Positions 1-18,842 of a stretch of DNA of 64,000 nucleotides are shown one piece after another. The notes below the pieces were generated by a model. It was given only the letters and a program-made list of their open reading frames with translations, ran no database searches and was not told the DNA's origin. Made by a program: the position numbers and the translations under genes. The DNA comes from Bacteroidota bacterium. Lineage in GTDB: Bacteria; Bacteroidota; Bacteroidia; Chitinophagales; Saprospiraceae. Within the stretch, counting starts at the first letter, position 1. Each line of letters begins with the position of its first letter. The stretch is taken from NCBI GenBank assembly GCA_030147525.1, contig JASBVF010000056.1, positions 248,001 to 312,000 of the forward strand, written 5' to 3'.

Positions 1-883
1 CGACGACCCTTTCGTTCCTGGATGGGTCGTCGGCATACACATCCCACTGGCCATTTCCATTGGTGTCTTCCCATTCGAAGCTGTTGTTTACTGAAAACGA
101 CAGCACGACTTCCACACTTCCGGTTTCATTGCCGGTAATGACCAACGGTTCCGTGAATTTTCCCGTCACCACACAGGAACCGGGCGGCACGGGGCTGGTT
201 TGAAATAGAGGATTCACCACCGTCGTCGCACCGGCAGGCGCTTCACCGGAAAAAACGGAATTGTAAGCATCGTAAGGCGCTGAAAAACCGGTTTCAAAGG
301 CCCAAAATCCCTGCTTTTTTGCTGCGTTGACAGCTAAGGTTTTCGACTTTGGAATGACCTGGGTCAGGTAAGTATTGAAACCTACGAACGAAGCAATAGT
401 GCCGGTCTGGTCGTCCAAATTGCCAATCAATGGAACATTTTTCAAATTAAATTTCATGTCATAATTCTGGTAAGTGACACTCACTCGCACCCACTCGTAA
501 GTACCGGGCGGCACATCTTTCAGGTTAATTTTTGTAAAAACCTCGTTCTCGCCAGCCACCAGCGCTTTGTCAAAATCTACCGCCAGGCTGCCTCCGGCAT
601 CCGTTTCAGCACCTTTATAAAGAATAACTCCGTTGCCCAATTGGGTCAAAGCATGGGGAGCAAGCTCAATGTAGTGGACGCTCATGGCATGAAAACCGGG
701 CGTTTGAGTTGCATGGCCCTGTGGAATCGTGGCTGGCTGACCGATATTATTCAGGCGGGGCTGGTTTTTATCAAAACGAAAAGAGAACATCAGTTGGTTT
801 TCGGCGCCGGGCGGCATATTTTCACCTTTTTTACAGGCAAAAAATGAAGAGAGGAGGAGCGCAAAGATCAAGTTGAATTTCAT
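1..883 (-). CDS. Lipoprotein, partial (3' end beyond the window)
   Basis: The minus strand is open from an ATG at 883 to base 1 with no stop, giving 294 codons; the C-terminus lies outside the window. The protein begins with a hydrophobic signal ending in SSFFAC, so residue 17 is a likely lipidated cysteine and the product probably sits in the outer or inner membrane facing the periplasm. The rest is beta-rich and hydrophilic, with no TM segment. Near the cut end it has DTNGNGQWD, which resembles a calcium-binding DxNxNGxxD loop. It diverges from the DUF885 peptidase gene with only 62 bases between the starts, so both promoters must lie there. I do not recognise the family; the lipoprotein assignment is the firm part. 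Confidence 0.8.
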   Translation of the reverse strand, partial: MKFNLIFALLLSSFFACKKGENMPPGAENQLMFSFRFDKNQPRLNNIGQPATIPQGHATQTPGFHAMSVHYIELAPHALTQLGNGVILYKGAETDAGGSLAVDFDKALVAGENEVFTKINLKDVPPGTYEWVRVSVTYQNYDMKFNLKNVPLIGNLDDQTGTIASFVGFNTYLTQVIPKSKTLAVNAAKKQGFWAFETGFSAPYDAYNSVFSGEAPAGATTVVNPLFQTSPVPPGSCVVTGKFTEPLVITGNETGSVEVVLSFSVNNSFEWEDTNGNGQWDVYADDPSRNERVV

Positions 884-945
884 TTTTTAGATTTTTGATG
901 AAACGTAGCGTCAGCTAAATTTTTCCACTTAAACGAAACAAAATC

Positions 946-2679
946 ATGAAACCCTACTTTCCCTGGCTCATTTTTATTGGTTGTTGTTTGTTTTTTTCAT
1001 CAAATGCACAGCAAGACCCGGCAAGTCAGTTGCGTAGTTTAATCGACGAAGACCGGCAGTTTCAAAAAAAAGAATTTTCAACTCCCGGCCGGGATTTTCC
1101 CGCCATCACTCCGGCTGACGAAATAAGACGGGCAGAATTTTACAGACAGGAACTGGCCCAACTGAAAAATATTGACCCTGTCCAGCTTTCCAGGCAGGAC
1201 AAAATCAGCTACGAACTGCTGAAATACGTACTCGAAGACCGCATCGCCGAGGTGGAATTCGAGGCTTACCTCGTGCCATTGAATGCAGAGGGAGGTTGGT
1301 ATACCGATTTCGTTTTATCAATTGATCGCCAGCGTTTTAACACAAAAGAAGATGTCGAAAAATACATTCGAAAACTGAACGGGTTCAAACACTGGGCTAC
1401 ACAAAACATCCAGTTAATGGAGACCGGCCTGGCAAAAGGCCGCACGGCGCCTTACGACATCCTGAAAGGCCGTGAGAACATTGTCGATCATCTGATTGTG
1501 AAACAGGCTGAGGATAGTCCATTTTACAAACCATTTGAAAATATGCCCGCCTCCATCCCGGCAACTGAACAGGAGGCTTTGCGAAAAGAAGGCCGTTCTG
1601 CCATTCTGAACAGCGTGGTTCCCGCCTACCGGGATTTTCGGGATTTTTGGAAAAACAAGTACATCCCCGGCGCAGTGAAGTCGCCGGGTATTGCCGTTCA
1701 GCCCAATGGCCGTGCTTACTACGAGCAGCGGGTGCGTTATTTCACCACCCTGCCCATGACTGCGGATGAGGTTTTTGAAATTGGCCAGCAGGAAGTGGCA
1801 CGCATTCGTACGGAGATGGAAGCGATCATTCGGGAAGTTGGATTCGAAGGCAGTTTTGCCGATTTTCTGCAATTTTTGCGCACCGACTCGCAGTTTTATC
1901 CAAAAACACCGAGGGAATTGCTTCAGGCAGCCAGCTATTTTTCAAAAAAAATCGATGGAAAACTGCCGGAGTATTTCGGGAAACTACCCCGGAATTCCTA
2001 CGGCGTCTCTCCCGTCCCCGATGTGTTGGCGCCCACCTACACCGGCGGCCGTTACAGCCCCGGCTCACTCGAACATCATCGGGCCGGTTTTTATTGGGTC
2101 AATACGTACAATTTGTCGTCCCGCCCGCTGTATGTGCTGCCATCCCTCACCTTGCACGAAGCGGTGCCTGGTCATCATCTTCAGATTTCATTGGCGCAGG
2201 AGTTAGAAGGCGTGCCTGACTTCAGGCGAAACACCTACCTCAGCGCCTTCGGCGAAGGCTGGGCGCTTTACGGCGAGTGGCTCGGCCAGGAAATGGGAAT
2301 TTATGAAACACCCTACGAGCATTTTGGGCGGCTTACTTACGAAATGTGGCGGGCTTGCCGACTAGTGGTAGACCCAGGCCTTCACGTCAAAGGCTGGAGC
2401 CGGGAGCAGGCTATTGAATTTATGGTCAACAACACGGCGCTCTCACTTCATGAGTGCACAACCGAAATCGACCGGTACATCGGCTGGCCGGGGCAGGCGG
2501 TTTCTTATAAAATCGGCGAGCTGAAAATCAGGGAATTACGCAAGCGTGCCGAGGAGGCTTTGGGTGAAAAATTTGACCTCCGTTCCTTCCACGACCTCAT
2601 ACTTTCAGAAGGAGCAGTGCCTTTGTTTATTCTGGAGAAAATGGTTGACGAGTGGATTGCTTCGCATAAAAAAGAATGA
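946..2679 (+). CDS. DUF885 family protein, putative secreted zinc metallopeptidase
   Basis: A 577-residue protein with an N-terminal signal peptide (residues 1-21, ending SSNAQ), so it is exported. The region from about 25 to 570 matches the DUF885 family, whose members are usually 550-620 residues. The diagnostic motif HEAVPGHH is at residues 404-411 and a conserved GEGWALYGEW follows at about 436-445; these resemble an HExxH zinc site with a downstream glutamate ligand, so peptidase activity is a reasonable inference from the family, though substrates are unknown. It stands alone, divergent from the upstream lipoprotein. No obvious terminator was found directly after it. Confidence 0.88.
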   Translation: MKPYFPWLIFIGCCLFFSSNAQQDPASQLRSLIDEDRQFQKKEFSTPGRDFPAITPADEIRRAEFYRQELAQLKNIDPVQLSRQDKISYELLKYVLEDRIAEVEFEAYLVPLNAEGGWYTDFVLSIDRQRFNTKEDVEKYIRKLNGFKHWATQNIQLMETGLAKGRTAPYDILKGRENIVDHLIVKQAEDSPFYKPFENMPASIPATEQEALRKEGRSAILNSVVPAYRDFRDFWKNKYIPGAVKSPGIAVQPNGRAYYEQRVRYFTTLPMTADEVFEIGQQEVARIRTEMEAIIREVGFEGSFADFLQFLRTDSQFYPKTPRELLQAASYFSKKIDGKLPEYFGKLPRNSYGVSPVPDVLAPTYTGGRYSPGSLEHHRAGFYWVNTYNLSSRPLYVLPSLTLHEAVPGHHLQISLAQELEGVPDFRRNTYLSAFGEGWALYGEWLGQEMGIYETPYEHFGRLTYEMWRACRLVVDPGLHVKGWSREQAIEFMVNNTALSLHECTTEIDRYIGWPGQAVSYKIGELKIRELRKRAEEALGEKFDLRSFHDLILSEGAVPLFILEKMVDEWIASHKKE

Positions 2680-2876
2680 AATTTTTTGCGGCGCCCAGGG
2701 GTAAAACATTTCAAAACTGACTGCACCTTCGCTTCGACTTCTTTAATCAATTGTTAAAAGCTACCATTTTCGGTAACGAAAGGGGCTGCTCAAACGATTA
2801 AATAGTAAGCAAACTTGCGGTGACAAAAGTGTTAGCACCAAACCAACCACCTTTTTTCACCTTAAAAACCAGTCAT

Positions 2877-2948
2877 ATGTTAGTACTCCTCGGAATCATC
2901 GCCATGTTTGGCTGCTTCGCCAAACTGGCATTCGACAGAAAATACTGA
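2877..2948 (+). CDS. Possible 23-residue hydrophobic micropeptide
   Basis: In the 363-base gap between the DUF885 gene and the HtrA gene there is a short ORF of 23 codons plus stop: an ATG, about 17 mostly hydrophobic residues (start MLVLLGIIAMFG), then the basic tail FDRKY. This is the composition of a single-pass membrane peptide. A strong hairpin follows 8 bases after the stop, at 2957-3011. There is no clear Shine-Dalgarno sequence and I did not find a convincing TAnnTTTG promoter in front of it. It is listed because peptide and hairpin fall together; it may still be chance. Confidence 0.35.
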   Translation: MLVLLGIIAMFGCFAKLAFDRKY

Positions 2949-2956
2949 AAAGCAAA

Positions 2957-3011
2957 GGAGTTACTCGAATTACTTCCGACTTCGAGTCTGACCCGCAATT
3001 CGAATAACTCC
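2957..3011. terminator. Hairpin terminator between convergent genes
   Basis: Arms 2957-2971 and 2997-3011 (GGAGTTACTCGAATT against AATTCGAATAACTCC) pair over 15 positions with one wobble or mismatch, and the loop holds a second small stem (GACT-TCG-AGTC). On the minus strand the stem runs directly into TTTGCTTTT, fitting termination of the HtrA gene. On the plus strand a T6 tract lies about 9 bases beyond the stem, so it could also end a short transcript carrying the micro-ORF. Confidence 0.65.
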
Positions 3012-3042
3012 CTGACGCTATTTTTTCACCCTGAAACCAATC

Positions 3043-4053
3043 CTACTTCATTTCAGCCGGAATAACTCTTACCTTTTCTTTACTACCTCTTCGCAATACT
3101 ATCAGCTCTGAAGCCTGACCTATTGACTTGTCATTCAATAACTTGTGCAAATCGTCAATTGAATGTACGGGCGTTTCACCCAAAGCGATAATGATATCCC
3201 CCACTTCCAGTTCGGAGTTATATGCCGGGCCGTCCGGCTCCACGCTCTGAACGAGTACACCGGATTTTACTGTGAGTTTGTGATAGCTGACGGAGCGGGG
3301 ATTCAGAGGGGCAGTCTGTCCGGCGATTCCAATATAGCCACGGCGAACTTTCCCCTCCATGATGAGCTTGCCCACAACATACTGCGCAAGGTTTGATGAA
3401 ACAGCAAAACAAAGCCCCTGGGCGGGTAAAATAACGGCTGTATTGACGCCGATAACACCGCCCTGGCTATCCACCAAAGGCCCACCGGAATTGCCTGGAT
3501 TCAACGCTGCATCCGTCTGAATGACATCGTCGATCAGCCTGCCGCTTTCCGATCTGAGCGTACGCCCCAGCGCACTCACGACGCCAGCTGTTACCGAATA
3601 CTGAAAACCATAAGGATTGCCAATCGCTACTGCCAGCTGACCAACCTGCAGGCTGTCGCTGTTACTAAAGCGAACTGCACGGAGGTTATCACCACTAATT
3701 TGCAAGACGGCAATATCCGTTGCGGGGTCTTCACCTACCAGTTTTGCCTGAAACTCCCGCCCGTCTTGCAGCGCCACCTCGATTCTGGTGGAATTACTGA
3801 CAACATGGCTATTCGTCACGATGAAACCATCACTGGAAATGATGAAGCCGCTACCCGTACCAAAGGGTTGTTGCCGTCTTGGGTTGCGGGATGGAGCAGG
3901 CTTTTTGTTTACTTTAATCTGGACAACAGAAGGGCTGACTGATTTTGAAACTCCAACAATCGACCTGGAGTAAGCATCCAGCAAAACTTCATCCGTGAAA
4001 GGTGTTTGGTAAGGTTGCATGTCGGGGTTTTCAGTCGCTGTTAGTTGAAACAT
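3043..4053 (-). CDS. HtrA/DegP-like serine protease with one PDZ domain (S1C)
   Basis: A trypsin-like serine protease of 336 residues. The catalytic triad is visible: His in VTNSHVV (about residue 83), Asp in ATDIAVL (about 113) and Ser in NPGNSGGPL (about 189). A single PDZ domain follows from roughly residue 240 to 331. Classical HtrA/DegP proteins carry an N-terminal signal or TM anchor, but this one has none: the N-terminus is polar, so it may act in the cytoplasm or be exported by another route. An internal ATG at 4020 is an equally possible start and removes 11 residues that look non-conserved. A TTG and a TAGGATTTG sequence at about 4081-4110 on the minus strand could be its promoter. 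Its transcript probably ends at the 2957-3011 hairpin. Confidence 0.88.
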   Translation of the reverse strand: MFQLTATENPDMQPYQTPFTDEVLLDAYSRSIVGVSKSVSPSVVQIKVNKKPAPSRNPRRQQPFGTGSGFIISSDGFIVTNSHVVSNSTRIEVALQDGREFQAKLVGEDPATDIAVLQISGDNLRAVRFSNSDSLQVGQLAVAIGNPYGFQYSVTAGVVSALGRTLRSESGRLIDDVIQTDAALNPGNSGGPLVDSQGGVIGVNTAVILPAQGLCFAVSSNLAQYVVGKLIMEGKVRRGYIGIAGQTAPLNPRSVSYHKLTVKSGVLVQSVEPDGPAYNSELEVGDIIIALGETPVHSIDDLHKLLNDKSIGQASELIVLRRGSKEKVRVIPAEMK

Positions 4054-4121
4054 AGATTGGATGATTTACGAGCGCTGGCTCAAATCCTATTGATTTTGAA
4101 AGGTGCCAACGCTGTTTTTGG

Positions 4122-4162
4122 AAAAAAAAGAAGCCGGGCACGTATCATCGTACCTGGCTTCT
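4122..4162 (-). terminator. Rho-independent terminator of the M28 peptidase gene
   Basis: Arms 4129-4142 and 4149-4162 pair over 14 positions (two are wobble or mismatch depending on strand) around a 6-base loop. On the minus strand the stem is followed by eight Ts (4122-4129). It lies about 150 bases past the stop of the peptidase gene and just ahead of the HtrA start, so it separates the two genes. Confidence 0.8.
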
Positions 4163-4313
4163 CGTTTTGATTTTCATTCCCGGAAAGGAATTTTCTTTCA
4201 CTGATGAAAATCATTCCAATCGATCAATTTAGACAAATTGGCAGGCAAGAAATTTTATTTCGTGAAATTTTGACAGCAAATACTTGGCTTGTTATTCAGT
4301 TTCACCTGTTTTG

Positions 4314-5540
4314 TCAAAACTCCACTTCTCTCTCAATGACTTTATTTTTACGCTTCACCTTCACTTTGGCCTTGTCGCCTTTTTTGAACTTGCTCAAACC
4401 CTCCATGTAGTCATAGATGGTTTTCACTTCAACATCCCCAATCTGCATCACGATGTCTCCTTTTTCCAACCCGGCCTTCTTCGCAGGGCGGTCATCCAGC
4501 ACCGCATCGATCCGCATTCCCTCACCGTCGTAGACATAGTCAGGCATGACTCCGAGCGTTACTTTAAAACTGGCGGCCTGCTGTTGTTCGTCTTTGGTTT
4601 TCGTGAATTCGATTTTACCGTCGTCATCCAGGTTTTCAATCAATTGTGCAATGAGTTGAGACACTTCGTAAAGGCCATCATAGTTAACCAGTTCACTGTC
4701 ATCACTCGGCTTGTGATAGTCGCTATGCTGCCCGGTAAAGAAATGAAGCACAGGAATGTCTGCCAGATAAAAAGAGGTATGATCCGAGGGCCCGATACCG
4801 CTATCAGAAGTTTTCACCTTGATTCCTCCGACGTTGATTTTAGCCAACTCATCTTTCCAAACCGGCGAAGTGCCTGCCCCATTCACTGCCAGCACTTTTT
4901 CTTCGTTCAACCTTCCGACCATGTCCATATTTAGCATGTAATTGACCATTTTGAGGTCGATGGTCGAATTTTCAACATACTTTTTCGAACCAATGAGCCC
5001 TAATTCCTCTCCTGAAAAAGCGATAAAAAGGTAGTTGTTATTTTTAGCCATAGAATTTTTCAGATATCCGGCCAGGTAAAGTAAAGATGAAACCCCGCTC
5101 GCATTGTCGTCGGCTCCGTTATGAATTGCCGGATCGCCGGAATGAAGAGAAGAGCCGGGCATACCCATTCCGAGGTGATCGTAATGAGCGCCGATGACAA
5201 CCGTATTGGCAGCCCCGTTGTCAATATAACCCACCACGTTTTTACCTGACCGTGACTCGCCACCAGAGGTAGCGTGTGGATTCATATTGTACTGAAAATC
5301 AAAGGAATGAAACCACCCCCCATCAGACCCCATGGGTTGCAGACCTATCTCCCCAAAACGAGCGGCAATGTATTGTGAAGCCAAGGCCTCGCCTTTTTTA
5401 CCGGACTCCCGGCCTTGCAAGAGATCGGAAGCCAGATAGACTACATCTACTCTCAATGCTTGCAAAACGGCATCTTTGTCCTGAGCAAAAAGGAGTTGGA
5501 AAACACCCAAACAAATAGAAAGAAGTAATAATTTTTTCAT
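4314..5540 (-). CDS. Secreted M28 family zinc peptidase with C-terminal PDZ domain
   Basis: An exported aminopeptidase-type enzyme. The start at 5540 gives a clean signal peptide (MKKLLLLSICLGVFQLLFAQ); an upstream in-frame ATG at 5561 adds seven residues. Numbered from 5561, the M28 metal ligands are seen in order: His in GAHYDHLG (126), Asp in NGADDNASG (151), the Glu pair in SGEELG (185-186), Asp in MLNMDMVG (213) and His in DYHKP (283), which fits a two-zinc site. Residues about 330-410 form a PDZ domain, a common fusion in this family. Substrate is unknown; periplasmic or surface peptide breakdown is the likely role. It is a single-gene unit closed by the terminator at 4122-4162. Confidence 0.9.
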   Translation of the reverse strand: MKKLLLLSICLGVFQLLFAQDKDAVLQALRVDVVYLASDLLQGRESGKKGEALASQYIAARFGEIGLQPMGSDGGWFHSFDFQYNMNPHATSGGESRSGKNVVGYIDNGAANTVVIGAHYDHLGMGMPGSSLHSGDPAIHNGADDNASGVSSLLYLAGYLKNSMAKNNNYLFIAFSGEELGLIGSKKYVENSTIDLKMVNYMLNMDMVGRLNEEKVLAVNGAGTSPVWKDELAKINVGGIKVKTSDSGIGPSDHTSFYLADIPVLHFFTGQHSDYHKPSDDSELVNYDGLYEVSQLIAQLIENLDDDGKIEFTKTKDEQQQAASFKVTLGVMPDYVYDGEGMRIDAVLDDRPAKKAGLEKGDIVMQIGDVEVKTIYDYMEGLSKFKKGDKAKVKVKRKNKVIEREVEF

Positions 5541-5820
5541 TTGAATTAAACTTTTTTTCATGACAGATATTTACAATCTTTAAAGTATCATTCGCCATCG
5601 ACCACATAAGAACTGCTCTAACAGACATTTATGTACAATTTTTTGCAACCCAGCTGACCTAATTATAATTTTAAAACACCAAACTAAAAGAGGTCGAAAA
5701 ACGATAAAAACGTGTTAATATAAGGGACGAAAGTTGTATTTTTGATGACTAACGGTAAAATTTTGGCACTCATTATCAAGTAAACATCTATTTTAATCGT
5801 AAGTTATTTGTGGAAAAACT

Positions 5821-5850
5821 TTGTAAAAAAATAATATCTCACTATTTTTG
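5821..5850 (+). promoter_or_regulatory. Consensus Bacteroidota housekeeping promoter for a small RNA
   Basis: TTG at 5821-5823, a 19-base spacer, and TATTTTTG at 5843-5850 match the Bacteroidota -33/-7 consensus (TTG, N19, TAnnTTTG) at every specified position. Transcription would begin near 5857 and run right. No protein gene follows on this strand; a terminator lies 113 bases downstream of the -7 element. Confidence 0.75.
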
Positions 5851-5856
5851 AGTCCC

Positions 5857-5994
5857 ATTCTTACTGATACTTGCCTGAGTTTTTCCAAACAGAATTTATT
5901 TTACTTATTAAAGCTATTTAAACAAATCCCGAAAAATAAAGATATAGTGTTTCATAGTGTGAGGGGTAACCGCTTCGGTGGTTGCTCCTTTTTT
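5857..5994 (+). ncRNA. Candidate small non-coding RNA (about 135-140 nt)
   Basis: This is defined by a perfect promoter (5821-5850) and a perfect intrinsic terminator (5963-5994) on the same strand, with no ATG codon anywhere between them. The body is AT-rich and has the direct repeat ATAGTGT-ttc-ATAGTGT just before the terminator. It does not show the conserved apical loop of SRP RNA, and I cannot match it to tmRNA, RNase P or 6S RNA by eye. It runs convergently toward the 3' end of the polyprenyl synthase gene, which ends 15 bases past the T-tract, so readthrough would be antisense to that mRNA. Confidence 0.6.
5963..5994 (+). terminator. Rho-independent terminator with UUCG tetraloop
   Basis: Arms 5963-5973 and 5978-5988 pair over all 11 positions in RNA (three G-U pairs) around a C(UUCG)G tetraloop, followed by T6 at 5989-5994 and further T-runs. 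There is no T-tract on the other side, so it works only for rightward transcription. No protein-coding gene reads into it. Confidence 0.85.
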
Positions 5995-6008
5995 ATTGCT
6001 TTTTTTTC

Positions 6009-6983
6009 TCAGAACTCACGTTTCATCAAAAAATCCGCAAAGCTTTCTAACATAGCCTTCCGGCCGGGCTCCGCCTGAATCTTGGACAAATTATCCAATG
6101 CCTCCTGTTGAAAAAAGGATTGTTTTTCCTCCGCTAATGTTTTTATTCCCAATTGATTAAATATCCGAATGACTTCCTTGATCTTAGCGCCCTCTTGTAT
6201 GTCTGGATTATTGTAGCAAGCTTTTAAAATCGTTTCTTTTTCCTTGTCCGCCACTTCAAGTGCCTTCAGGTAAAGATAAGTTTTCTTGTTTTGGACAATA
6301 TCACCCCCAGTTTTTTTGCCAAACTTCTCCGGGTCGCCAAAAGTGTCCAACACATCATCCTGAAGTTGAAAGGCAATGCCGAGGTTTCGCCCAAATTCGT
6401 ACAGCAGCTGAGCATCTTCCTCGTTGGCACCTCCCAGCAAAGCACCGATTTTCAGGGCACCACCTAAAAGCACAGACGTTTTCAACTCGATCATCCGGAT
6501 GTACTCTTCAATACTTACATCGTTCCGTTTCTCAAAGTTGATATCCATCTGCTGCCCTTCGCATACTTCGATGGCAAATCGATTGAATATTTTCAAGACA
6601 TCCTTCAGGCGAGGATGCTCAAGCTTCATAAGGTATTCATAGGCATACACCAGCATCACATCTCCGGAGAGAATGCCAGTGTTCAGGTTGTACTTTTCAT
6701 GAACCGTCGGTTTCCCACGGCGCAGCGGAGCATCATCCATAATGTCGTCGTGCAGCAATGTGAAGTTGTGGAAGACCTCTACGGCAAAAGCAGCCGGCAG
6801 TGATTGCTCGACCGAATCATCAAAAAGATAGTGCCCCATGAGCAAAACCGCCGGCCGAAGGCGCTTACCTCCAAGTGAAAGTATGTAGTCGATCGGTTCG
6901 TACAACTCCCGGGGCTCACGTGAGAATTTATTATCCAGAAGAAATTGCTCGAAAAGCTGTTGAATTTGGTGTAAAGTTTGCAT
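6009..6983 (-). CDS. Polyprenyl (probably farnesyl/geranylgeranyl) diphosphate synthase
   Basis: A trans-prenyltransferase of 324 residues joining isopentenyl diphosphate to allylic diphosphates for isoprenoid synthesis in the cytoplasm. Both aspartate-rich Mg sites are present: HDDIMDD (Asp 79, 80, 83) followed by the RRG motif, and QLQDDVLD (Asp 209, 210, 213). The GGKRLRP motif at 38-44 binds the diphosphate. An aromatic residue (Phe74) five positions before the first aspartate motif suggests a short-chain product; this is inference. A longer ORF starts at 7037, but a TATTTTTG -7 element at 7020-7027 puts the transcript start near 7013, so the ATG at 6983 is the real start. Confidence 0.92.
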   Translation of the reverse strand: MQTLHQIQQLFEQFLLDNKFSREPRELYEPIDYILSLGGKRLRPAVLLMGHYLFDDSVEQSLPAAFAVEVFHNFTLLHDDIMDDAPLRRGKPTVHEKYNLNTGILSGDVMLVYAYEYLMKLEHPRLKDVLKIFNRFAIEVCEGQQMDINFEKRNDVSIEEYIRMIELKTSVLLGGALKIGALLGGANEEDAQLLYEFGRNLGIAFQLQDDVLDTFGDPEKFGKKTGGDIVQNKKTYLYLKALEVADKEKETILKACYNNPDIQEGAKIKEVIRIFNQLGIKTLAEEKQSFFQQEALDNLSKIQAEPGRKAMLESFADFLMKREF

Positions 6984-7019
6984 GGTGATCGCTGAATAGT
7001 TTGTCAAAAGGGGTCGGGG

Positions 7020-7027
7020 CAAAAATA
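7020..7027 (-). promoter_or_regulatory. -7 promoter element of the polyprenyl synthase gene
   Basis: The minus strand reads TATTTTTG here, a full match to TAnnTTTG. No TTG stands 19 bases upstream, so the -33 element is weak. It predicts a transcript start near 7013, about 30 bases ahead of the ATG at 6983. Confidence 0.55.
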
Positions 7028-7240
7028 ATCCCCGCATTTACATTTTACTTCTTCCTGTCGTTTCATTTTGAGAATTCCTTTAAACCGAGCTTATAAAATT
7101 CAGGTAGTTTCATTTTCATTCTAAATCTAAACCACTGAAAATTTATCCCATGCAGTGTACATTAAAAGATTTTCACCTGAAAAGTTTAAAATAAGATAGC
7201 CTCATGACTACACCAAGCCGCTTTTCCTAATTTTCTAACA

Positions 7241-7684
7241 ATGAAGAAATCCAGATCCGTGAATATTTTACTAATTGAAGATAACCCGGGAGATGTCAGA
7301 CTGGCACAAGAAGCCTTCAAAGAAGGGAACGTTGACGTTAAGCTCGACATCACCATGGACGGTATGGAAGCGCTGTTGTTTCTACGGAAAAAAGCGCCCT
7401 ACGAAACCGTGAAAACACCTGACCTCATCCTGCTGGATCTCAATTTGCCCAAAAAAGATGGCAGGGAGGTTTTAACTGAAATAAAGGAAGACCCTAACCT
7501 GAGGCGTATTCCTGTTGTCATTTTAACCACATCCAACGCTGAGCAGGACATCCTGAACAGCTACAACCTTCACGTCAATTGCTATGTCAACAAACCGGTT
7601 GACTTTGACCGGTTCTTCGATATTATTCAAAAGATCGAAGAATTCTGGCTTAAAACTGCCATCCTTCCCAGTATGGTAAGGTGA
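7241..7684 (+). CDS. Single-domain response regulator (Rcp1/CheY-like)
   Basis: A stand-alone receiver domain of 147 residues with no output domain. The acidic pocket (IEDN, residues 12-15), the phosphoacceptor Asp66 in ILLDLNLP, the switch Thr in ILTTSN and the conserved Lys in VNKP are all present, so it should be phosphorylatable. The spacing and the LIEDNPGD..L..EAF pattern resemble the Rcp1 subgroup that often pairs with hybrid or phytochrome kinases. The next gene, 109 bases downstream, encodes a multidomain receiver/kinase-like protein, so the two likely belong to one phosphorelay. Confidence 0.92.
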   Translation: MKKSRSVNILLIEDNPGDVRLAQEAFKEGNVDVKLDITMDGMEALLFLRKKAPYETVKTPDLILLDLNLPKKDGREVLTEIKEDPNLRRIPVVILTTSNAEQDILNSYNLHVNCYVNKPVDFDRFFDIIQKIEEFWLKTAILPSMVR

Positions 7685-7793
7685 ATACCGAGCTCATGCG
7701 GTTGATGAACGGAAACTGATTTACAGCATGTTTTAAATTAAAGTAGTTCAATTTCCGGCCCGGGAAAACCAGCAACACACAACGAGAAAGCTC

Positions 7794-9743
7794 ATGAATA
7801 CGAAAAGCAGAGTACCGATACTATTGATCGAAGATAATGCTGAGGATGCAGCAATGATAAAAAAGTACCTCGAAGACGTTGGCTTCAAGTACGATCTTTA
7901 TCACACGGAAACACTGTACGAAGGGATAGACCTGATCAAAAAAAATCCTGTCGAAATTGTTCTGTTGGACCTGAACTTACCCGATTCTTCCGGCTTTAAA
8001 ACTGTTTCATCCTACCTGGAAAAGGCGGCAAACGTCCCCGTCATCATCGTCACTTCGATGTATAACGAAATCATTGGAAATCAGGCGATTAAAGCTGGGG
8101 CACAGGATTATCTGATCAAAGGGCAATTTGACAGCAAATTATTCGGCCGCTCTATCCGGTACTCGTTGCAGCGGGCGAAAGTCCAGTTAAAACTGGAGGA
8201 TACGGCCAAAGAATTGGAACACAGCAAAAAGCGCTTCCTTGAAGCGCAGAAAATGGCTCATTTCGGCACCTGGGAAATGGATATTGTTTCGAGTACGATG
8301 GTTTGGTCCGATGAGATTTACCGTATTTTCTCGCTTATACCGGGCAGCTTCAACCCTACCCTTTCCGAGTATCTCACTTTTGTGCCGTTGGAAGAACGCC
8401 CGACCGTTGAATCTTTTTTCGAAAACGCTGCAAAAGACGGACAACTGCATCAGACTGAACACCGGATTCTGGTGGAAGGCACCAACATCCGGTATGTAAC
8501 CATCCAGGCCAAAGTGCAGGTGGATGATAGCGGAAATTTTATCCTCGCAGGCAGCATCCAGGATATTACCGAACGAAAAATGTCGGAGAAGCTGCTCATT
8601 GAAAAAAACATCTCAAACCAAACTGCAAAAATCCAGGAAGCAGTGCTCGCAGATCTCAGTTTCCAGATTCGAACCCCGCTGTCTTCCATCGTCAACCTTT
8701 TGTTTTTGTTGGAAAACACGGAAACTGACCCCTCTCAATCCACTCATATCAACGACCTGAAAACCTCCATCAGCGACCTTTCCCTGTCCGTCAACAACCT
8801 GCTGAACTTCTCAGTGATGGTAGCTGACAATGTGAAGATTGAAGACGAAGAATTTAACATCCGTGACTTCCTGACCGGCGTTCATAATATTCTCAAAATC
8901 AAAGCTGACTCTGCCAACCTTCCTTTGAAGTTCGACATCGATGATAAACTCCCGGAAAAAATCACCGGCGACCCGAAGAAAGTCACCCAAATCCTCTACA
9001 ACCTGATCGAACATGCCATGCTCTACAAGGGTGAAAATGCCAGCGTTTTGGTGAATGCAAGCATGAATGAAGCTAAGGGCAATAAATCGAACATACTCCT
9101 GAGTGTCACAAACTCAGGTATTCAACTTCCTAAAAGCGAAATCAACCAGTTGATCCAAGCAGAAAAACTGCTCGAGATCAACATGGAGGAAAAAGATGCC
9201 GTGACCCAAAAGCGAAAGCTGGGCATCGCCATCGTTTCAAAACTGGCAAAAACGCTTGGAGGGGAAATTTCTATCGAAAGCAAACAGCGTGAAGGCACGG
9301 AGTTTTCTATTAGTTTACCTGTCAAAATTCCTCGCCAGACAAGGCTGCTCTCCGGCGATGCTCCGGATGTGCCGCTGAAGATTTTGATGGTCGAAGACCA
9401 CTTCCTCAATCAAATTGCCACCAAAAAAGTACTCACATCATGGTCAAACATGGTCAGCGTGGACATTGCTGAAAACGGCCTGATTGCCGTGGAAAAATTC
9501 AGGGAAAACAGCTACGACCTCATCCTCATGGACATTCAGATGCCCGTGATGAACGGGCTGGATGCTGCCAAAAAAATCCGTGAGTTCAGCAACGTTCCGA
9601 TCATTGCCCTCACGGCCAATTCCACCAAACAGGAACAAGACAAGTGTTTTGAAATCGGCATGAACGATTACCTCGGCAAGCCTTTCAAACCTCAGGAATT
9701 GTATGGCCGGATCATGAATATTATGTCACTGGTTATGAATTAA
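7794..9743 (+). CDS. Receiver-PAS-histidine-kinase-like-receiver hybrid protein with degenerate kinase core
   Basis: A cytoplasmic protein of 649 residues without TM segments. The order is: receiver (about 7-125, phospho-Asp59 in VLLDLNLP), PAS (about 145-262), a HisKA-like dimerisation segment (about 280-345), an HATPase-like domain (about 365-510) and a second receiver (about 527-648, phospho-Asp580 in LILMDIQMP). The kinase parts are altered: the phosphoacceptor His of the usual SHEIRTPL motif is Phe290 (LSFQIRTPL), the Mg-binding Asn of the N-box is His407 (NLIEHAML), and the G1 box DxGxG reads NSGIQ (Asp replaced by Asn440). The G2 region (KLGIAI...LGGEISIES) remains. It therefore probably cannot autophosphorylate and may act as a PAS-gated scaffold or phosphate sink. 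It follows the single-domain regulator. Confidence 0.9.
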   Translation: MNTKSRVPILLIEDNAEDAAMIKKYLEDVGFKYDLYHTETLYEGIDLIKKNPVEIVLLDLNLPDSSGFKTVSSYLEKAANVPVIIVTSMYNEIIGNQAIKAGAQDYLIKGQFDSKLFGRSIRYSLQRAKVQLKLEDTAKELEHSKKRFLEAQKMAHFGTWEMDIVSSTMVWSDEIYRIFSLIPGSFNPTLSEYLTFVPLEERPTVESFFENAAKDGQLHQTEHRILVEGTNIRYVTIQAKVQVDDSGNFILAGSIQDITERKMSEKLLIEKNISNQTAKIQEAVLADLSFQIRTPLSSIVNLLFLLENTETDPSQSTHINDLKTSISDLSLSVNNLLNFSVMVADNVKIEDEEFNIRDFLTGVHNILKIKADSANLPLKFDIDDKLPEKITGDPKKVTQILYNLIEHAMLYKGENASVLVNASMNEAKGNKSNILLSVTNSGIQLPKSEINQLIQAEKLLEINMEEKDAVTQKRKLGIAIVSKLAKTLGGEISIESKQREGTEFSISLPVKIPRQTRLLSGDAPDVPLKILMVEDHFLNQIATKKVLTSWSNMVSVDIAENGLIAVEKFRENSYDLILMDIQMPVMNGLDAAKKIREFSNVPIIALTANSTKQEQDKCFEIGMNDYLGKPFKPQELYGRIMNIMSLVMN

Positions 9744-9859
9744 CCCGGACTGTACTTCCAGTTACCGAATTGTCCTGCATTCGCATCTTCTTCACTTTAG
9801 CCTAACCAAGTTAACTCTCGTGCAGAGTTTCAGGTTGCAAATGCCCGTGGAAGAACGGG

Positions 9860-9888
9860 GCCAAACGAACAGTTTGGCAACTTTTTTT
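9860..9888 (+). terminator. Rho-independent terminator after the hybrid kinase-like gene
   Basis: GCCAAAC (9860-9866), a 5-base loop and GTTTGGC (9872-9878) form a perfect 7-bp stem followed by AAC and T7 (9882-9888). It lies in the 318-base gap before the DNA methyltransferase gene and closes the response-regulator transcription unit. I saw nothing else clear in that gap. Confidence 0.8.
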
Positions 9889-10061
9889 GTCTATCTGGAA
9901 GAATCTACCCACTTTTGAGCCGCTTTTTGAAATGGTGAATTCGTAATTTGGGCAAACCTGTGTCGTTCAACACAGTGGCCGCAATCATTTTATTTACCAA
10001 TTCACTTGTTCACCCCTGCCTGGCTGCATTTAGCCGGGCTGAAATTCACCTACTCAGCAGG

Positions 10062-10973
10062 ATGGCAAAAAACAGACAAAGCACCAAAACCAGTTCTTTC
10101 GGTACAAACGGCAGGATCAACCACGATTCCTCGAAGTTTTACAATTCCCGGCTATACCAGGAACTGGAGGTCAAAAAAGTTGAAAAAAAGCCTGCCGAAC
10201 CCGTCAACCCCTTCCCCGTCAACCTGCTAAATCAGATCATCTGCTCCACTTCTGAGAACATGTCCTCCATTCCGGACAACTCCGTCCACCTGATGATCAC
10301 GTCGCCGCCCTACAATGCCACAAAAGATTACGACGAAGACCTTTCACTGGTTGAATACCTGCACTTTCTGGAGCGGGTTTTTACTGAAACCTACCGGGTC
10401 CTGGTGCCCGGCGGACGGGCCTGCATCAACGTCGCCAACCTTGGCCGCAAGCCCTACCTGCCGCTAACTGCCTACATTTCGACCATGATGATCGATATCG
10501 GGTTTTTGATGCGGGGTGAAATCATCTGGGACAAGGGAGGCAGCGCCAGCCCAAGCACCGCATGGGGCAGCTGGCAGAGCGCTTCGAACCCCATCCTCCG
10601 GGATGTGCATGAGTACATTCTCGTTTTTTCAAAAGGAGATTACAAGCGCCATTTGTCCAAAAATGAAAAGGAAGTGAAGCTAAATTCCATAGGCCGTGAT
10701 GAATTCCTGGAATGGACGAAAACCGTCTGGCAAATGAACGCCGAGTCCGCCAAACGCATCGGGCACCCGGCACCCTTTCCTGTTGAATTGCCGCACCGCC
10801 TGATTCAGTTGTATTCTTTTGAAACAGACATTGTGCTGGACCCATTCATCGGCAGTGGCACTACCGGAGTGGCAGCCCTGCGAGCAGGCCGCAATTTTGT
10901 AGGCTACGAAATAGTGGAAGAATATGTGAAGCTTGCGCAAAAACGCATTGATGCCACGGAAGTAACATCCTGA
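10062..10973 (+). CDS. Orphan beta-class DNA methyltransferase (N4-C or N6-A)
   Basis: A SAM-dependent DNA amino-methyltransferase of 303 residues. The catalytic motif IV reads TSPPYN (residues 80-85) near the N-terminus and the SAM-binding motif I reads DPFIGSG (260-266) near the C-terminus, so the order is that of beta-class enzymes. SPPY is most common in N4-cytosine enzymes but also occurs in N6-adenine ones, so the base cannot be fixed. The ORF extends upstream to a TTG codon at 9948, but the added 38 residues look like translated non-coding DNA and the ATG at 10062 is preferred. No restriction enzyme gene is adjacent, so it is probably an orphan regulatory or protective enzyme. It is convergent with the epimerase gene 19 bases away. 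Confidence 0.88.
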   Translation: MAKNRQSTKTSSFGTNGRINHDSSKFYNSRLYQELEVKKVEKKPAEPVNPFPVNLLNQIICSTSENMSSIPDNSVHLMITSPPYNATKDYDEDLSLVEYLHFLERVFTETYRVLVPGGRACINVANLGRKPYLPLTAYISTMMIDIGFLMRGEIIWDKGGSASPSTAWGSWQSASNPILRDVHEYILVFSKGDYKRHLSKNEKEVKLNSIGRDEFLEWTKTVWQMNAESAKRIGHPAPFPVELPHRLIQLYSFETDIVLDPFIGSGTTGVAALRAGRNFVGYEIVEEYVKLAQKRIDATEVTS

Positions 10974-10992
10974 GCTACCGCTCAAAACTGAC

Positions 10993-11988
10993 TCATTCTG
11001 CGTCGTTTAATTGAATCCAGTCCACCGTTTTTTTCAAACCCTCATCAATTCTGGTAAACTCGTAGCCTAAATGTTGCCGGGCTTTTTCACTGGAAAGCTC
11101 CCAGTTGTAAAGGTATTTTTTCACCCAGGGCGGCGTCAGTAACGGTGGCGCTCCGGTCAGATTTGCCCTGACTTCCATGACCCGGGCCACAAGATTTACC
11201 ACCGGAATGGGTATTTTGAAAAGCTTTTCCCGCTTGCCTGTAATTCCGGCAAGCATTTCGAAAAAATCATTGAACGAAATATTATCCCCGCCCAGAATGT
11301 AGCGTTCCCCTGCACCACCCTTCTCCATCGCACGAACGTGGCCATCAACCACATCGTCGATGTACACATAATTGCCGACACTGTTGCCGTCTCCGGGCAG
11401 GGTACGGAATTTACCACGCAGATAAAGTTTCACCATCCTCGTCACGCCGTTGCTATCGCTGAGCAGACCTGGGCCGTACACCCGGGTCGGATTCACAACG
11501 ATAATTTCCAAATCTGACTCCCGGCTCAGGGCTGCGGCCTTCTCTTCGGCTTCGGCCTTTGAGCGTTCGTAGTCGGTGAAGTAATCCACCCAACGGGGCG
11601 TGTTTTCATCGGAAGGAACACCGTTGGAAGGGCTGATCACACCAGCGGTGGAGGTGAAGACCACACGTTTGGCGCCTGCATGGCGGGCAGCTTCGAATAC
11701 GTTCAACGCTCCATCCACATTGTAGCGGTAAAATGTCTGCGGATCTTTATCCCAGGGTTTGGCGTAAGCCGCAACATGAAAAACCCCATCGCATCCCGCT
11801 GCCGCCGCCTTCAGGCTTTCCGGATGCAGCAGATCGCCTTTGAAAAAATGAACACCTTCCACATTTTTCAGGTCCGCTGTTTTCGATTCGCTACGGTAGA
11901 GCGCATGAATGGTGTGCCCTTCACTTGCCAGGCGTTTAGCTAACTGAACGCCGATGTAACCGGTCGCACCGGTGATGAGATACTTCAT
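10993..11988 (-). CDS. NAD-dependent epimerase/dehydratase (extended SDR)
   Basis: A 331-residue extended short-chain dehydrogenase/reductase. The Rossmann motif TGATGYIG is at residues 6-13, and the catalytic YxxxK pair is Tyr140 and Lys144 in YERSK, with Ser/Thr in FTSTAGV (111-117) upstream. The overall sequence resembles the dihydroflavonol-4-reductase or hopanoid-associated sugar epimerase subgroups, but the substrate cannot be set from sequence. It is a single gene facing the DNA methyltransferase tail to tail. Confidence 0.88.
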   Translation of the reverse strand: MKYLITGATGYIGVQLAKRLASEGHTIHALYRSESKTADLKNVEGVHFFKGDLLHPESLKAAAAGCDGVFHVAAYAKPWDKDPQTFYRYNVDGALNVFEAARHAGAKRVVFTSTAGVISPSNGVPSDENTPRWVDYFTDYERSKAEAEEKAAALSRESDLEIIVVNPTRVYGPGLLSDSNGVTRMVKLYLRGKFRTLPGDGNSVGNYVYIDDVVDGHVRAMEKGGAGERYILGGDNISFNDFFEMLAGITGKREKLFKIPIPVVNLVARVMEVRANLTGAPPLLTPPWVKKYLYNWELSSEKARQHLGYEFTRIDEGLKKTVDWIQLNDAE

Positions 11989-12046
11989 TGCTTGCTGAGA
12001 ATTTTTAATTCGGATAAAATTTCGAGGGGCAAATATAGCCCTAAAA

Positions 12047-12090
12047 CAACAAGGAGCGGCCCAGTGTTGACTGGTCGCCGCTCCTTGTTG
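12047..12090 (-). terminator. Long hairpin terminator of the reprolysin-type protease gene
   Basis: Arms 12047-12060 and 12077-12090 form a perfect 14-bp GC-rich stem (CAACAAGGAGCGGC and its complement), and the 16-base loop itself contains CCAGT/ACTGG. On the minus strand the stem is followed by TTTTAGG, a modest T-tract. It lies 42 bases past the stop of the large protease gene. Confidence 0.7.
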
Positions 12091-12131
12091 GAAACTTACA
12101 GGCTGCTTTTCTGAACAGCCCGACAGGGTTT

Positions 12132-15100
12132 TTACCTGCCGATCAAAAGTTTTTTCACAAAAATACCTGCCTCCGTACGCACCTGCACGAAGTAAATACC
12201 TGACGGCAGTCCGCCCGTGTTCAGTTGCAGGTTTTCAGATGCAATATCAAACTGGCGAACCAGCACCTGCTGCCCCTGAGCATTGACGATCGAGGCAGTC
12301 AGTTTGCCGGGCATCGATTTTTTGAAGCCCAGCGTAACCAGGTCCGTAGCCGGGTTCGGAAACAGGAAGAAGTCGTTGCTTGCTGCCAGGTCCTCCACGC
12401 TGGTTGGGTCAGCATTCGCATCGATGATGATATTGAAACGTGGCGTACCGAAGTAACCGCCATTTCCGTCATTCACCGAAAAAGTGAAATAATCGTAGGT
12501 AGCATTCGGGTCGGTATTGGTGTATTGCACAGCACTGGAGTAAACATCCAGCATAGTGAAATGATCGCCAATGCCCAACGGCTGGCCATTCAGTTTCACT
12601 TCGCCAAACGCTGTGTTCTTCACGATAGTAAACTGCAACTCACTCGGCAAATTATCCTGATCTTCCACCTCAAGGCGGTTCTGGTAAATCAGGCGGGATC
12701 CGTTCGGCGGCACCCTCAGCGTATCGTTTTTCACCAAAACCGGATCCTTGGGAGTGATCGAAGCACAGTATTCGAGTGCCCAGCCCTCAAACGAACCACC
12801 GTTGCCCAACGTATTGATAACCGCAACGATCAGTGTCCAGTCTCCGGCCACATCCTGTCCGTTGAAAGCGGATAGCACCTGGGCGGGTTTGTACGAGTTA
12901 CCGGCGTTGGGTGGGCAGGGAACGGTCGTCAAAGGCGACTGGTCATCAAAACCCATGTTGAAATCCTGACTGTTGCAAGGCAATGCCGACAGCAAAGTCA
13001 CGGAATCACCGGCAGGGTTTTTCACACGGAATGCAAGATCAGCGATAGCATCATGCTTTCCTTTGATGCTTTTCAGGTTGATATCGCTGATAGTTCCGCT
13101 CTGCGGAACATTGATTTTTGACTGAATGTAAGGCAAGCCCAAGCCTGAGATTTGAACAGTGCTTCCAGTGCTTTGCAGCTGCTGGCAGGTTTGTGAAACG
13201 GTGTGAAACGAAGCCGGATCAAGGTAGCCCGTAAAGCCACATTCGTTTGCAGGCTGAATACGCCAGTAGTAAATCGAATTATCCTCAAGGGTAACCGAAG
13301 GCGTGAAAGTTGGGTTGGTGAGTCCTGTTGCTTCGCTGACAATGCTGGTGAAACCAGGGTCCGCTGCGATCTGAATGTCGTAGCTCGAAGCATTTGGGAG
13401 TGCAGTCCAGGTGAAAGTCGGGAGCCCGGTCTGGCCCGAGGCACCGTCTTCCGGCGTAAGCACCGTCAATGCTGAAAAATCGTTGTTCACGAAGTTGATG
13501 TCCACGGTCCGCTCAGCGACCGGTACGCCATCCGCTTCTGCTTTGATGGTGATGGTAAAAACGCCGTCCGCAGTGACGTCATCGTTGCTGATCGTCAGTG
13601 TCGATTCTCCGCCCGGCGGTATCGGATTGTTGTTAAACGAACCCACCGCACCGGCAGGCAATCCTTCCACCGAGAAAGTGATATTTTCTGAAAAACCCTG
13701 AAGCGAAGTCGTCTGCAGGCTCACTGCGAAAGGATCAGGCAAACAAACCTGACCGTATTCCGGTGCAGAAACGAGCGCAAAACCGGGCTGTGAGGCAGGC
13801 ACAATCGAAAAATTCTGATTTGAAATGTCGAAGAAAATATTATCAGCCGCTTCCACCCTTACCCGAGCAGTGGTGGTCAGTTCTTCCGGTACGACAACGA
13901 AAGCGCTACCGTCGTTCGGCGTTTGCGCCAGCAAAGTAACCGGATAGGTAAAGCCACCATCTTTCGACAACCGAATATTCACAAACTTACAGTTCACCGG
14001 CGCAGCATCCGTGTTTGCCACATCCCAGGTCACCTCGACATACTGGCCGACCTCCCAGGTCTCACTGCTGGTATTCGGTTTCGTGACAACAAAGGGACCG
14101 GCTGCCGCAGAGGCGTTGAATTGAATTTCTTTGTAACCATATCCACCCGCTCCGGCGTGGTTGTCACGGGCCGTAAAACGGAAAGTTAAAGGTCTCGTAA
14201 TGGTAGGCAGTACCTCTTGAATATCGGAAGAATTCGATACGATGGTTTCCATTTTAGGGAAAACCCGTGTCAGCGACGAAGAAGGCGGATTGGAGCGGAA
14301 CAAAGGTGCATTGCCATTGGGCATACCCAGTAAACTGGCCGGGCCAAGATCGTATTGCTCCCAGCTGTATGTCATGTTGTCACCGTCAGCGTCAGTTGCC
14401 TGACCTGTCAGCACGAAAGGCGTACTGATCGGAATACTGAACCCGCCCGTGATCGGAATGGTCACTTCGGGAGTGTTGTTTCCAACTGTCACCACCTGCG
14501 CACAGGTACCACCGGTGTTTGCGTTCCGGCTGAACGCCCTGACACGTTCCATTGAGTTGATGTGAAAATAGTCATCCGTGATTGCCTGCAAGTGGTTGGT
14601 TCCACAAACGCCATTGCCGTTGTAGCACATGATTGAGCTGCCGCTACCCGGCTCGTAGGCTGTGGAAGGGGTTTCATTTTGATCATCACATTTGTTAAAC
14701 GTATGCGTTGCGTTGAACTGATGACCCACTTCATGCCCTACCACCAGGTAAAACAGATTGCCATTGTACGGCCCGAAACGACAGGAAGCTCCCCGGGACT
14801 TGTGCCCGGTGTCAAGCCCGCCGGAACAAACAGAAGCCAACGCTGCCAGCCCTCCGCCATTCGTTCCGAAAACATGGCCGATGTCGTAACCGGCATTGGT
14901 GTAGGCTCCGTTCAGGACGTTGAGATTTTGGGAGATCATGTCCGAGGTATTCCCGTTGGTGTAGGGATCCGTTGCAGCGCTGAAGAAAAAAGTCTGTGAA
15001 GTGTTGGCGATCAACACCAGCCGGATAGCGTTGTCTCTTTCAAAAATGCTGTTGACCTGATTCACCACATTTGTCACAGAAGACAACACCAACGCAGGAG

Positions 15101-15788
15101 TGCCACCCGCTCCGGTAGAATATTCGCCGGTGGTAGCCACGGCGAGGCGGTAGGTGTAGAGGTTGATGACGGCGCCGCTGCCCCGCTGATTTTCACCAAA
15201 AACAATGTTATTTTCATCCAGATCATCCGCTTCCGGATGTTCCAGCCCGCAGAAAGATTCGACCATCTCTGCAAGGTTGATGCTTGTATTTTTTAACCAG
15301 TAGCTCATGTAAAACTCCTGCTGCCCGGTGGCGTAGGGTGAAATGAACCAGGTGCCGTCCATCGTCTGTACGATGGCATTGAAGCCTAACAATGTTTGGG
15401 CAAAACGGATGGTCACGCCCGGACGGTCGAGGCTTTTCCCTGCGAAAGTTTTGATCATCGGGAAAGCATCTGCCAGACCTGGCTCCATGATCGACGACTC
15501 CCATACCGCAAAGTTTTCCATACCACCGTCAGGTTCCGGCAGGCTGAGAATCAGAGGGTTGTTCTCCGCAGCATCGGTAAATTCTGCGGGTGCCTGCCGC
15601 AGGTAGTTCACCATCGCATTCATATCCAGCGACAGAGTGCGGTAAACCGACGGCGCTGATTCGACAACTGCATTTTCAGGTACGTTAATTTGCGCCTCAC
15701 TCACATCGTTCCAAAAGCTCGCAGAAGACTGCGCCATCAGAAAAACGAAGGAAAAAAGGGCGATACAAGTAGTCAGGATTTTCTTCAT
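12132..15788 (-). CDS. Secreted reprolysin-type metalloprotease with T9SS sorting domain
   Basis: A 1218-residue exported zinc endopeptidase. From the ATG at 15788 there is a signal peptide (MKKILTTCIALFSFVFLMAQ) and a propeptide, then a metalloprotease domain with HEVGHQFNATH (His352, Glu353, His356, His362), the extended HExxHxxxxxH zinc site of metzincins, and a nearby SSIMCYNG Met-turn. Downstream come beta-sandwich and fibronectin-III-like modules, a proprotein-convertase P-like domain with the GDWTL pattern, a cadherin-like segment, and a C-terminal type A T9SS sorting domain (FPNPATD... ending KKLLIGR). It should be delivered to the cell surface or medium. A longer ORF begins at 15863, but that lies inside the -7 element at 15861-15868, so 15788 is preferred. 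Confidence 0.93.
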   Translation of the reverse strand: MKKILTTCIALFSFVFLMAQSSASFWNDVSEAQINVPENAVVESAPSVYRTLSLDMNAMVNYLRQAPAEFTDAAENNPLILSLPEPDGGMENFAVWESSIMEPGLADAFPMIKTFAGKSLDRPGVTIRFAQTLLGFNAIVQTMDGTWFISPYATGQQEFYMSYWLKNTSINLAEMVESFCGLEHPEADDLDENNIVFGENQRGSGAVINLYTYRLAVATTGEYSTGAGGTPALVLSSVTNVVNQVNSIFERDNAIRLVLIANTSQTFFFSAATDPYTNGNTSDMISQNLNVLNGAYTNAGYDIGHVFGTNGGGLAALASVCSGGLDTGHKSRGASCRFGPYNGNLFYLVVGHEVGHQFNATHTFNKCDDQNETPSTAYEPGSGSSIMCYNGNGVCGTNHLQAITDDYFHINSMERVRAFSRNANTGGTCAQVVTVGNNTPEVTIPITGGFSIPISTPFVLTGQATDADGDNMTYSWEQYDLGPASLLGMPNGNAPLFRSNPPSSSLTRVFPKMETIVSNSSDIQEVLPTITRPLTFRFTARDNHAGAGGYGYKEIQFNASAAAGPFVVTKPNTSSETWEVGQYVEVTWDVANTDAAPVNCKFVNIRLSKDGGFTYPVTLLAQTPNDGSAFVVVPEELTTTARVRVEAADNIFFDISNQNFSIVPASQPGFALVSAPEYGQVCLPDPFAVSLQTTSLQGFSENITFSVEGLPAGAVGSFNNNPIPPGGESTLTISNDDVTADGVFTITIKAEADGVPVAERTVDINFVNNDFSALTVLTPEDGASGQTGLPTFTWTALPNASSYDIQIAADPGFTSIVSEATGLTNPTFTPSVTLEDNSIYYWRIQPANECGFTGYLDPASFHTVSQTCQQLQSTGSTVQISGLGLPYIQSKINVPQSGTISDINLKSIKGKHDAIADLAFRVKNPAGDSVTLLSALPCNSQDFNMGFDDQSPLTTVPCPPNAGNSYKPAQVLSAFNGQDVAGDWTLIVAVINTLGNGGSFEGWALEYCASITPKDPVLVKNDTLRVPPNGSRLIYQNRLEVEDQDNLPSELQFTIVKNTAFGEVKLNGQPLGIGDHFTMLDVYSSAVQYTNTDPNATYDYFTFSVNDGNGGYFGTPRFNIIIDANADPTSVEDLAASNDFFLFPNPATDLVTLGFKKSMPGKLTASIVNAQGQQVLVRQFDIASENLQLNTGGLPSGIYFVQVRTEAGIFVKKLLIGR

Positions 15789-15860
15789 GCTGATTTTAAT
15801 TTTTTTAACTGGTTGAATTTCAAATGAGAACACGGCAAAGCCGCACATTCGAAGGTTTGG

Positions 15861-15868
15861 CAAAGCTA
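15861..15868 (-). promoter_or_regulatory. -7 promoter element of the metalloprotease gene
   Basis: The minus strand reads TAGCTTTG, a full TAnnTTTG match, placing transcription start near 15854 and leaving a leader of about 65 bases. No TTG is present 19 bases upstream. It decides the start codon of the protease gene. Confidence 0.5.
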
Positions 15869-16353: not shown

Positions 16354-16395
16354 GGTCTGCTTTTTTAGTTTTAAAATTTATTGATAATCAGCATT

Positions 16396-18771: not shown

Positions 18772-18842
18772 AGCACGGATGATTTTTCTCAAAATCAGCA
18801 ATGCGTATGCCACCACCATAAATACCTGAATACCAGATCATT

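Follow-up and report, generated by a model that had tools for sequence, protein, structure and literature searches.

A candidate small RNA gene of Saprospiraceae with a near-invariant 17-nucleotide element ahead of its terminator

What does a bacterial transcription unit produce when its promoter leads to a terminator and no reading frame lies between them? The question is raised by positions 5820 to 5994 of the 64,000-nucleotide (nt) stretch of DNA analysed here (the window; contig JASBVF010000056.1 of assembly GCA_030147525.1, from a Bacteroidota bacterium of the family Saprospiraceae), which a reading of the sequence alone had singled out as a possible small RNA (sRNA) gene. Comparison with related genomes suggests that the locus very probably belongs to a real, previously undescribed sRNA family of a known kind, whose short core is unusually strictly conserved. 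In addition, we consider it reasonably likely that it is a stand-alone gene for a Saprospiraceae small regulatory RNA in which a 17-nt element, ATAGTGTTTCATAGTGT (5944..5960, + strand), acts as the seed for pairing in trans.

A promoter and a terminator without a reading frame

On re-reading the sequence, the consensus Bacteroidota promoter and the terminator without a reading frame that the sequence-only reading had described proved correct base for base. The promoter consists of a −33 box TTTG (5820..5823, +) and, 19 bases 3′ of it, a −7 box TATTTTTG of the form TAnnTTTG (5843..5850, +). As had also been claimed, 113 bases separate the −7 box from the start of the stem, ATG is absent in between, and the stop of a polyprenyl synthase gene lies at 6009, 15 bases beyond the T run. 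In the intrinsic terminator hairpin (5963..5988, +), positions 5963-5973 and 5978-5988 form the two arms of the stem, closed by a C(UUCG)G loop; a T6 tail (5989..5994, +) comes next. The eleven pairs, the loop and the tail are thus as described, whereas the stem is "all-paired" only if its three G-U wobbles (3/11 pairs) are counted. The predicted transcript (5857..5994, +), with its 5′ end inferred from the −7 box and its 3′ end from the T run, would measure about 138 nt.

Folding of the hairpin (RNAfold, 33 nt) gives −14.5 kcal/mol with a z of −4.75, and none of 200 shuffled sequences is as good; for the whole 138 nt, z is −2.2 and 5 of 200 shuffles are as good. Among the 35 terminator-like sites of window 1-20000, where 26 would be expected by chance, the hairpin ranks first in number of pairs. 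The strongest evidence against a chance arrangement is, however, comparative, in that the predicted promoter, the 17-mer and the hairpin recur in relatives.

Conservation within and beyond the family

The chief feature of the locus, overlooked in the sequence-only reading, is the invariant 17-mer ahead of the hairpin. The family name Saprospiraceae is used here as broadly as in the genome collection; NCBI does not list Lewinella, Phaeodactylibacter and Flavilitoribacter directly under that name. When the DNA of 60 relatives was searched, strong matches were confined to the last 50-70 bases. An alignment of 20 loci shows 24 consecutive bases identical in all and a stem that varies little, while the region further upstream aligns poorly beyond the genus and the 5′ part is conserved within the genus only. 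The near-invariant 3′ part is made up of the 23-mer ATAGTGTTTCATAGTGTGAGGGG and the terminator hairpin.

Allowing up to 3 mismatches, this 23-mer is present in 41 of 100 family genomes representing 99 genera (reversed control, 0). Outside the family it was found in none of 290 genomes, and the two matching genomes in a phylum-wide sample of 296 both come from the family. An exact 15-mer occurs in 98 of 248 family genomes and 50 of 112 genera (control, 0), at least one of the 98 (G090) being the start of a gene instead of a copy of the sRNA. A covariance model reaches E ≤0.05 in 175 of the 248 genomes, many of these matches being weak and unread, and gives weak extra matches, likewise unread, in the source genome itself (E 0.006-0.04). 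A scan of named genomes returned at least 117 matching stretches; the 80 titles seen are all Saprospiraceae or Saprospirales, Lewinella, Phaeodactylibacter, Flavilitoribacter, or bins labelled only Bacteroidetes or bacterium. The viral collection held no exact match.

Antisense matches at gene starts in G090 and G479 (exact 15-mer) and in G011 (one mismatch) were read as chance and set aside, given that genes often start with ATGAAACA and that 248 genomes should yield about two such 15-mers by chance (an estimate; the control gave 0).

Within the genus of the window, core and terminator lie between the same pair of flanking genes in 12 of 14 genomes, 8 of which also have a perfect promoter, and this persistence supports the proposal of an sRNA gene of about 138 nt. 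The contrary pattern, loss of promoter and terminator between retained flanks, was checked in these 12 genomes only. Of the other two, G006, which is 80% complete, gave no strong match in the DNA search; in G010 all that was found is a degenerate motif, GTGTTTCATAATGT, and the 3 kb viewed there includes neither flanking gene.

In the order outside the family, covariance matches at E ≤0.05 were obtained in 34 genomes (43 of 119 in all), with a best E of 1e-6, and in the seven of those 34 whose loci were read the 17-mer is absent. Two of these seven, of one genus in another family of the order (G631, locus L087, and G639, locus L091), carry TTTCATAGTGTG directly before a hairpin with a T run, at a point where in both genomes a similar reading frame ends; these loci may be distant relatives of the sRNA.

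A 5′ motif of the predicted transcript, TCTTACTGATACTTGCC (5859..5875, +), is alike in about 9 of the 12 own-genus loci as judged by eye from alignments, and unconserved beyond the genus. The motif around CTGATACTT at this predicted 5′ end (window 5859-5875), common to most own-genus copies, is perhaps a second contact site.

Selection on the RNA and on its promoter

Comparison supports the notion that the terminator hairpin is under selection as RNA. In the alignment of 44 loci on which covariation was scored, 94.8% of the cells of the 11-pair stem are paired and double changes affect 7 of the 11 pairs (15 cells); none of 500 shuffles reaches the stem's result, and structures slid by 1-3 columns are only 36-63% paired. 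Read from the opposite strand, the conserved G-U pairs would turn into A-C mismatches, which points to a function of the + strand RNA. The consensus fold of nine own-genus units comprises 19 pairs, none of them with a double change.

The promoter was scored as the best match, out of 10, to the pattern TTTG-N18..21-TAnnTTTG in the 170 bases upstream. Of 128 distinct 15-mer copies with enough flank, the 123 with a T run after the hairpin region were used and 5 were dropped. A score of 10 was obtained in 19 of the 123 copies, as against 0.5 in resampled sequences and 0 on the opposite strand, and a score of at least 9 in 75 copies, as against 11.4 and 11, respectively. The transcripts predicted for these 75 copies range from 53 to 176 nt, with a median of 103. 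On sequence evidence, the unit has two features expected of an intergenic trans-encoded sRNA, a promoter of its own, perfect in the window, and an intrinsic terminator maintained through compensatory change. No conserved reading frame was found, as the core's one stop-free frame can be extended to an ATG no more than 200 nt upstream in just 9 of the 123 copies, and the predicted RNA is non-coding.

Proposed function

The 17-mer looks like the functional unit, because paralogues keep it before unrelated hairpins. The exact 15-mer is present once in 85 of its 98 genomes, whereas G541 has six copies, G098 five and G480 four. In G541 and G098, the paralogues preserve the 17-mer entirely or almost entirely, and the hairpins that come after it are unrelated in sequence; some copies have no terminator that is clear by eye. 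Just the first 13-14 bases are retained in G102 and in one copy of G492, and G631 and G639 keep TTTCATAGTGTG, so that the most constrained part need not be the whole 17-mer.

We propose that transcription from the unit's own Bacteroidota-type promoter would produce a lineage-specific leader, the near-invariant element and then the intrinsic terminator hairpin, which would serve as 3′ end and stabiliser. The element would base-pair in trans with messenger RNAs (mRNAs), most plausibly at translation starts, because ATGAAA, the hexamer with which genes of this genome most often begin, is contained in its complement ACACTATGAAACACTAT. In 864 kb of the source genome, 152 of the 617 predicted genes open with ATGAAA, and a random 17-mer would contain the complement of this hexamer with a chance of about 0.3%, an estimate made after the fact. 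By analogy with RbpB, the partner of FopS in Bacteroides, an RRM-domain protein may take part; the source genome has two RRM_1 matches.

Target searches, in which the start codon was chosen crudely as the first ATG, yielded no firm target. Pairing at starts relative to internal sites was marginally better than that of shuffled seeds (5 of 60 as good), and signal-peptide-like genes were slightly favoured by the real seed relative to shuffled ones (1 of 40 as low). Strong pairing was also predicted for one isolated susC-like gene, which, being n = 1, was not used.

Several observations weigh against this proposal. Beyond the sRNA, sites for the 11-mer CACTATGAAAC show no enrichment in carriers, with 0.29 per Mb in 42 carrier genomes and 0.39 per Mb in 58 others (p 0.16), and in the source genome the 17-mer with up to 3 mismatches has 7 sites versus 12 for the control. 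Across the 14 genomes of the genus no recurring gene start matches 13 of 14 bases; one such 13/14-base site does recur in two sister genomes (L285, L287), but it opens a 6-codon frame. Both the mean start-pairing energy and the number of starts below −11 kcal/mol are weaker for the real seed than for the shuffled mean, and with the real seed signal-peptide-like genes do not differ from the rest (p 0.47). Nor is the 17-mer clearly single-stranded, its mean unpaired probability (0.47) lying between the value obtained with shuffled leaders (0.43) and that of the leader (0.54). The 123 copies behind the promoter excess are not phylogenetically independent, 8 of the 19 perfect promoters coming from the genus of the window. 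Finally, 17 invariant bases are long for a pairing seed, and protein binding could be the constraint.

A bolder version of the pairing hypothesis holds that the RNA is a family-wide silencer of translation starts, whose seed complements an idealised start ACACUAUGAAACACUAU and represses many mRNAs of secreted proteins beginning AUG-AAA, with RNAs bearing tandem complementary sites, such as those of the arrays in three carrier genomes, acting as sponges. We regard this extension as quite improbable.

In a genome of another family of the order (G047), a 20-nt exact match found twice was rejected as an sRNA copy, since it marks the start of two genes beginning MKHYIFLL. These genes (L092, L093) start with ATGAAACACTATATCTTT, inside the 20-nt exact complement of the sRNA core region, and share a signal peptide; one of the two frames stops after 30 codons.

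Alternative explanations and gene context

The best-surviving alternative to the trans-pairing sRNA is a protein-binding RNA, in which the 17-mer, which contains an AGTGT-N5-AGTGT repeat, would form together with the hairpin the site of an RNA-binding protein that the RNA titrates or guides. Such a role would suit an element of 17 bases that stays invariant while leader and hairpin vary, whose complements are not enriched in carrier genomes and which shows no clear exposure. However, 85 of the 98 exact-15-mer genomes are single-copy, with one motif per RNA, whereas known titrating RNAs carry many sites, and a motif immediately before the terminator is the sRNA pattern. We therefore take protein binding as the main role to be a serious but rather unlikely possibility.

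The remaining alternatives depend on the neighbouring genes, which were viewed over about 1.5 kb on each side of the 44 loci. A GNAT acetyltransferase gene upstream together with the synthase gene downstream was found at 19 loci, the synthase alone at 12 (the genus of the window), GNAT alone at 9 and neither at 4; outside the genus of the window, GNAT is thus upstream in 28 of 32 loci, and the synthase is downstream and convergent in 31 of the 44. Among four strain-named records viewed, Phaeodactylibacter xiamenensis, Lewinella cohaerens and Flavilitoribacter nigricans have the core between the GNAT and synthase genes, and Phaeodactylibacter luteus has it with only GNAT detected nearby. In the window, the neighbours are a convergent, syntenic polyprenyl synthetase gene (PF00348; 6009..6983, −), which lies outside the RNA, and a divergent gene for an M28 peptidase with a PDZ domain (4314..5546, −). 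The likeliest history of this pattern is ancestral synteny with later loss of neighbours, and the putative RNA is dependent on neither of them, which argues against both cis-antisense action and a mobile element.

The presence of GNAT upstream and on the same strand in 28 of the 44 loci raises the idea that the conserved part is a terminator or 3′ untranslated region element, originally of the GNAT mRNA, that acts in transcript ending or stability. This we deem improbable: in the genus of the window, where no GNAT was found at that place and the gene upstream points away, the unit has nonetheless been retained, and 8 of 12 loci carry a perfect promoter; promoters are in excess upstream of the core; and paralogues sit in unrelated contexts.

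Regulation of the convergent synthase gene in cis-antisense, which the sequence-only reading had also envisaged, is suggested by the short distance between T run and gene end and by the frequent convergence of the two, but the predicted RNA stops 15 nt short of the gene, so that overlap would arise only if the terminator were read through, and 13 of the 44 loci keep the core with the synthase undetected within about 1.5 kb; this role is very improbable. A mobile or repeat element in place of a gene, to which the patchy presence (98/248), the multiple copies in one genus and the tandem motif arrays of three genomes might point, is just as hard to credit and already largely excluded by synteny, given GNAT and/or synthase within about 1.5 kb in 40 of the 44 loci, a covarying stem, the promoters and the lack of exact matches in the viral collection.

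Comparison with known small RNAs

No Rfam family reached its gathering threshold, either in the window or in nine other sources, and hence no model for the signal recognition particle RNA, 6S RNA, transfer-messenger RNA or RNase P did so in the window. Four weak matches obtained at a permissive threshold, none near its gathering score, were discarded. The best of the weak matches, sbrA, an sRNA of Listeria (22.9 bits, E 0.036), falls far below its gathering score of 45 and covers mainly the hairpin with UUCG loop and U tail, a likeness of terminators only.

The trans-pairing sRNA that we favour resembles in build the FopS RNA of Bacteroides; the two were compared by description, and membership is not claimed. 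FopS is reported to have a single-stranded seed followed by a terminator and to pair at the starts of susC-like mRNAs (PMC11697453). FopS and GibS of Bacteroides thetaiotaomicron likewise have paralogues sharing the seed (PMC11697453; PMC7366714), and FopS likewise has sigma-ABfr promoters (PMC11697453). The present locus would match this build, with a putative seed directly followed by a terminator and with paralogues sharing it. It differs in that it belongs to Saprospiraceae and not Bacteroidaceae, is mostly present in one copy per genome and is target-less so far; in addition, its conserved stretch adjoins the hairpin, behind leaders that differ greatly in length, and does not sit at the 5′ end. 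Rfp18 of Flavobacterium psychrophilum is another independent sRNA from the phylum, conserved within its genus and with mRNA targets proposed for it; it is described as having strong secondary structure and pairing through its third stem-loop (PMC9723704), again a comparison by description.

A search of open-licence papers with Saprospiraceae, Lewinella or Saprospiria plus small-RNA terms, judged from titles and abstract openings, found no sRNA of the family, and the 17 letters GTGTTTCATAGTGTGAG had no match in papers. The element stays nearly unchanged across some fifty genera amid variable surroundings, which points to an equally constrained partner. Strain-named carriers exist in Phaeodactylibacter, Lewinella and Flavilitoribacter, so that this partner can be sought directly, and such a search would test whether an arrangement of seed, terminator and RRM protein like that of Bacteroides is more widespread in the phylum.

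Tandem copies of the motif and other observations

A strict tandem-motif pattern was found in 3 of 248 genomes (control, 0); a relaxed search, with 27 matches in 23 genomes against about 70 in 48 for the reversed control, was not used. In G483 (L385/L387, C345 at about 4090-4220), tandem 29-nt units of AGTGTGAGG, 5 nt and CCTCAGTGTTTCAT hold about four motif copies, some of them degenerate. The array lies between FtsI-like and MurE-like genes (named by eye), with the motif in linkers between mini-hairpins, and on the mRNA strand it presents repeated complements of the sRNA core. G130 (L386, C47:10125-10185) and G447 (L388, C44:2246-2277), both carrier genomes, have intergenic groups of close GTTTCATARTG copies, three (one of them incomplete) in the former and two in the latter; the complementary strand in G447 runs into a strong hairpin with a T run, like a possible sponge RNA.

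Elsewhere in the source genome (G000:C9 near 131997; L289 1584-1896), a tandem repeat codes for NEVDTPVNEVD-like units beside a thymidylate-synthase-like frame recognised by eye. Within the window itself, the open reading frame at 9948-10973 on the + strand has a TSPPYN motif and would, by eye, encode a DNA methyltransferase.
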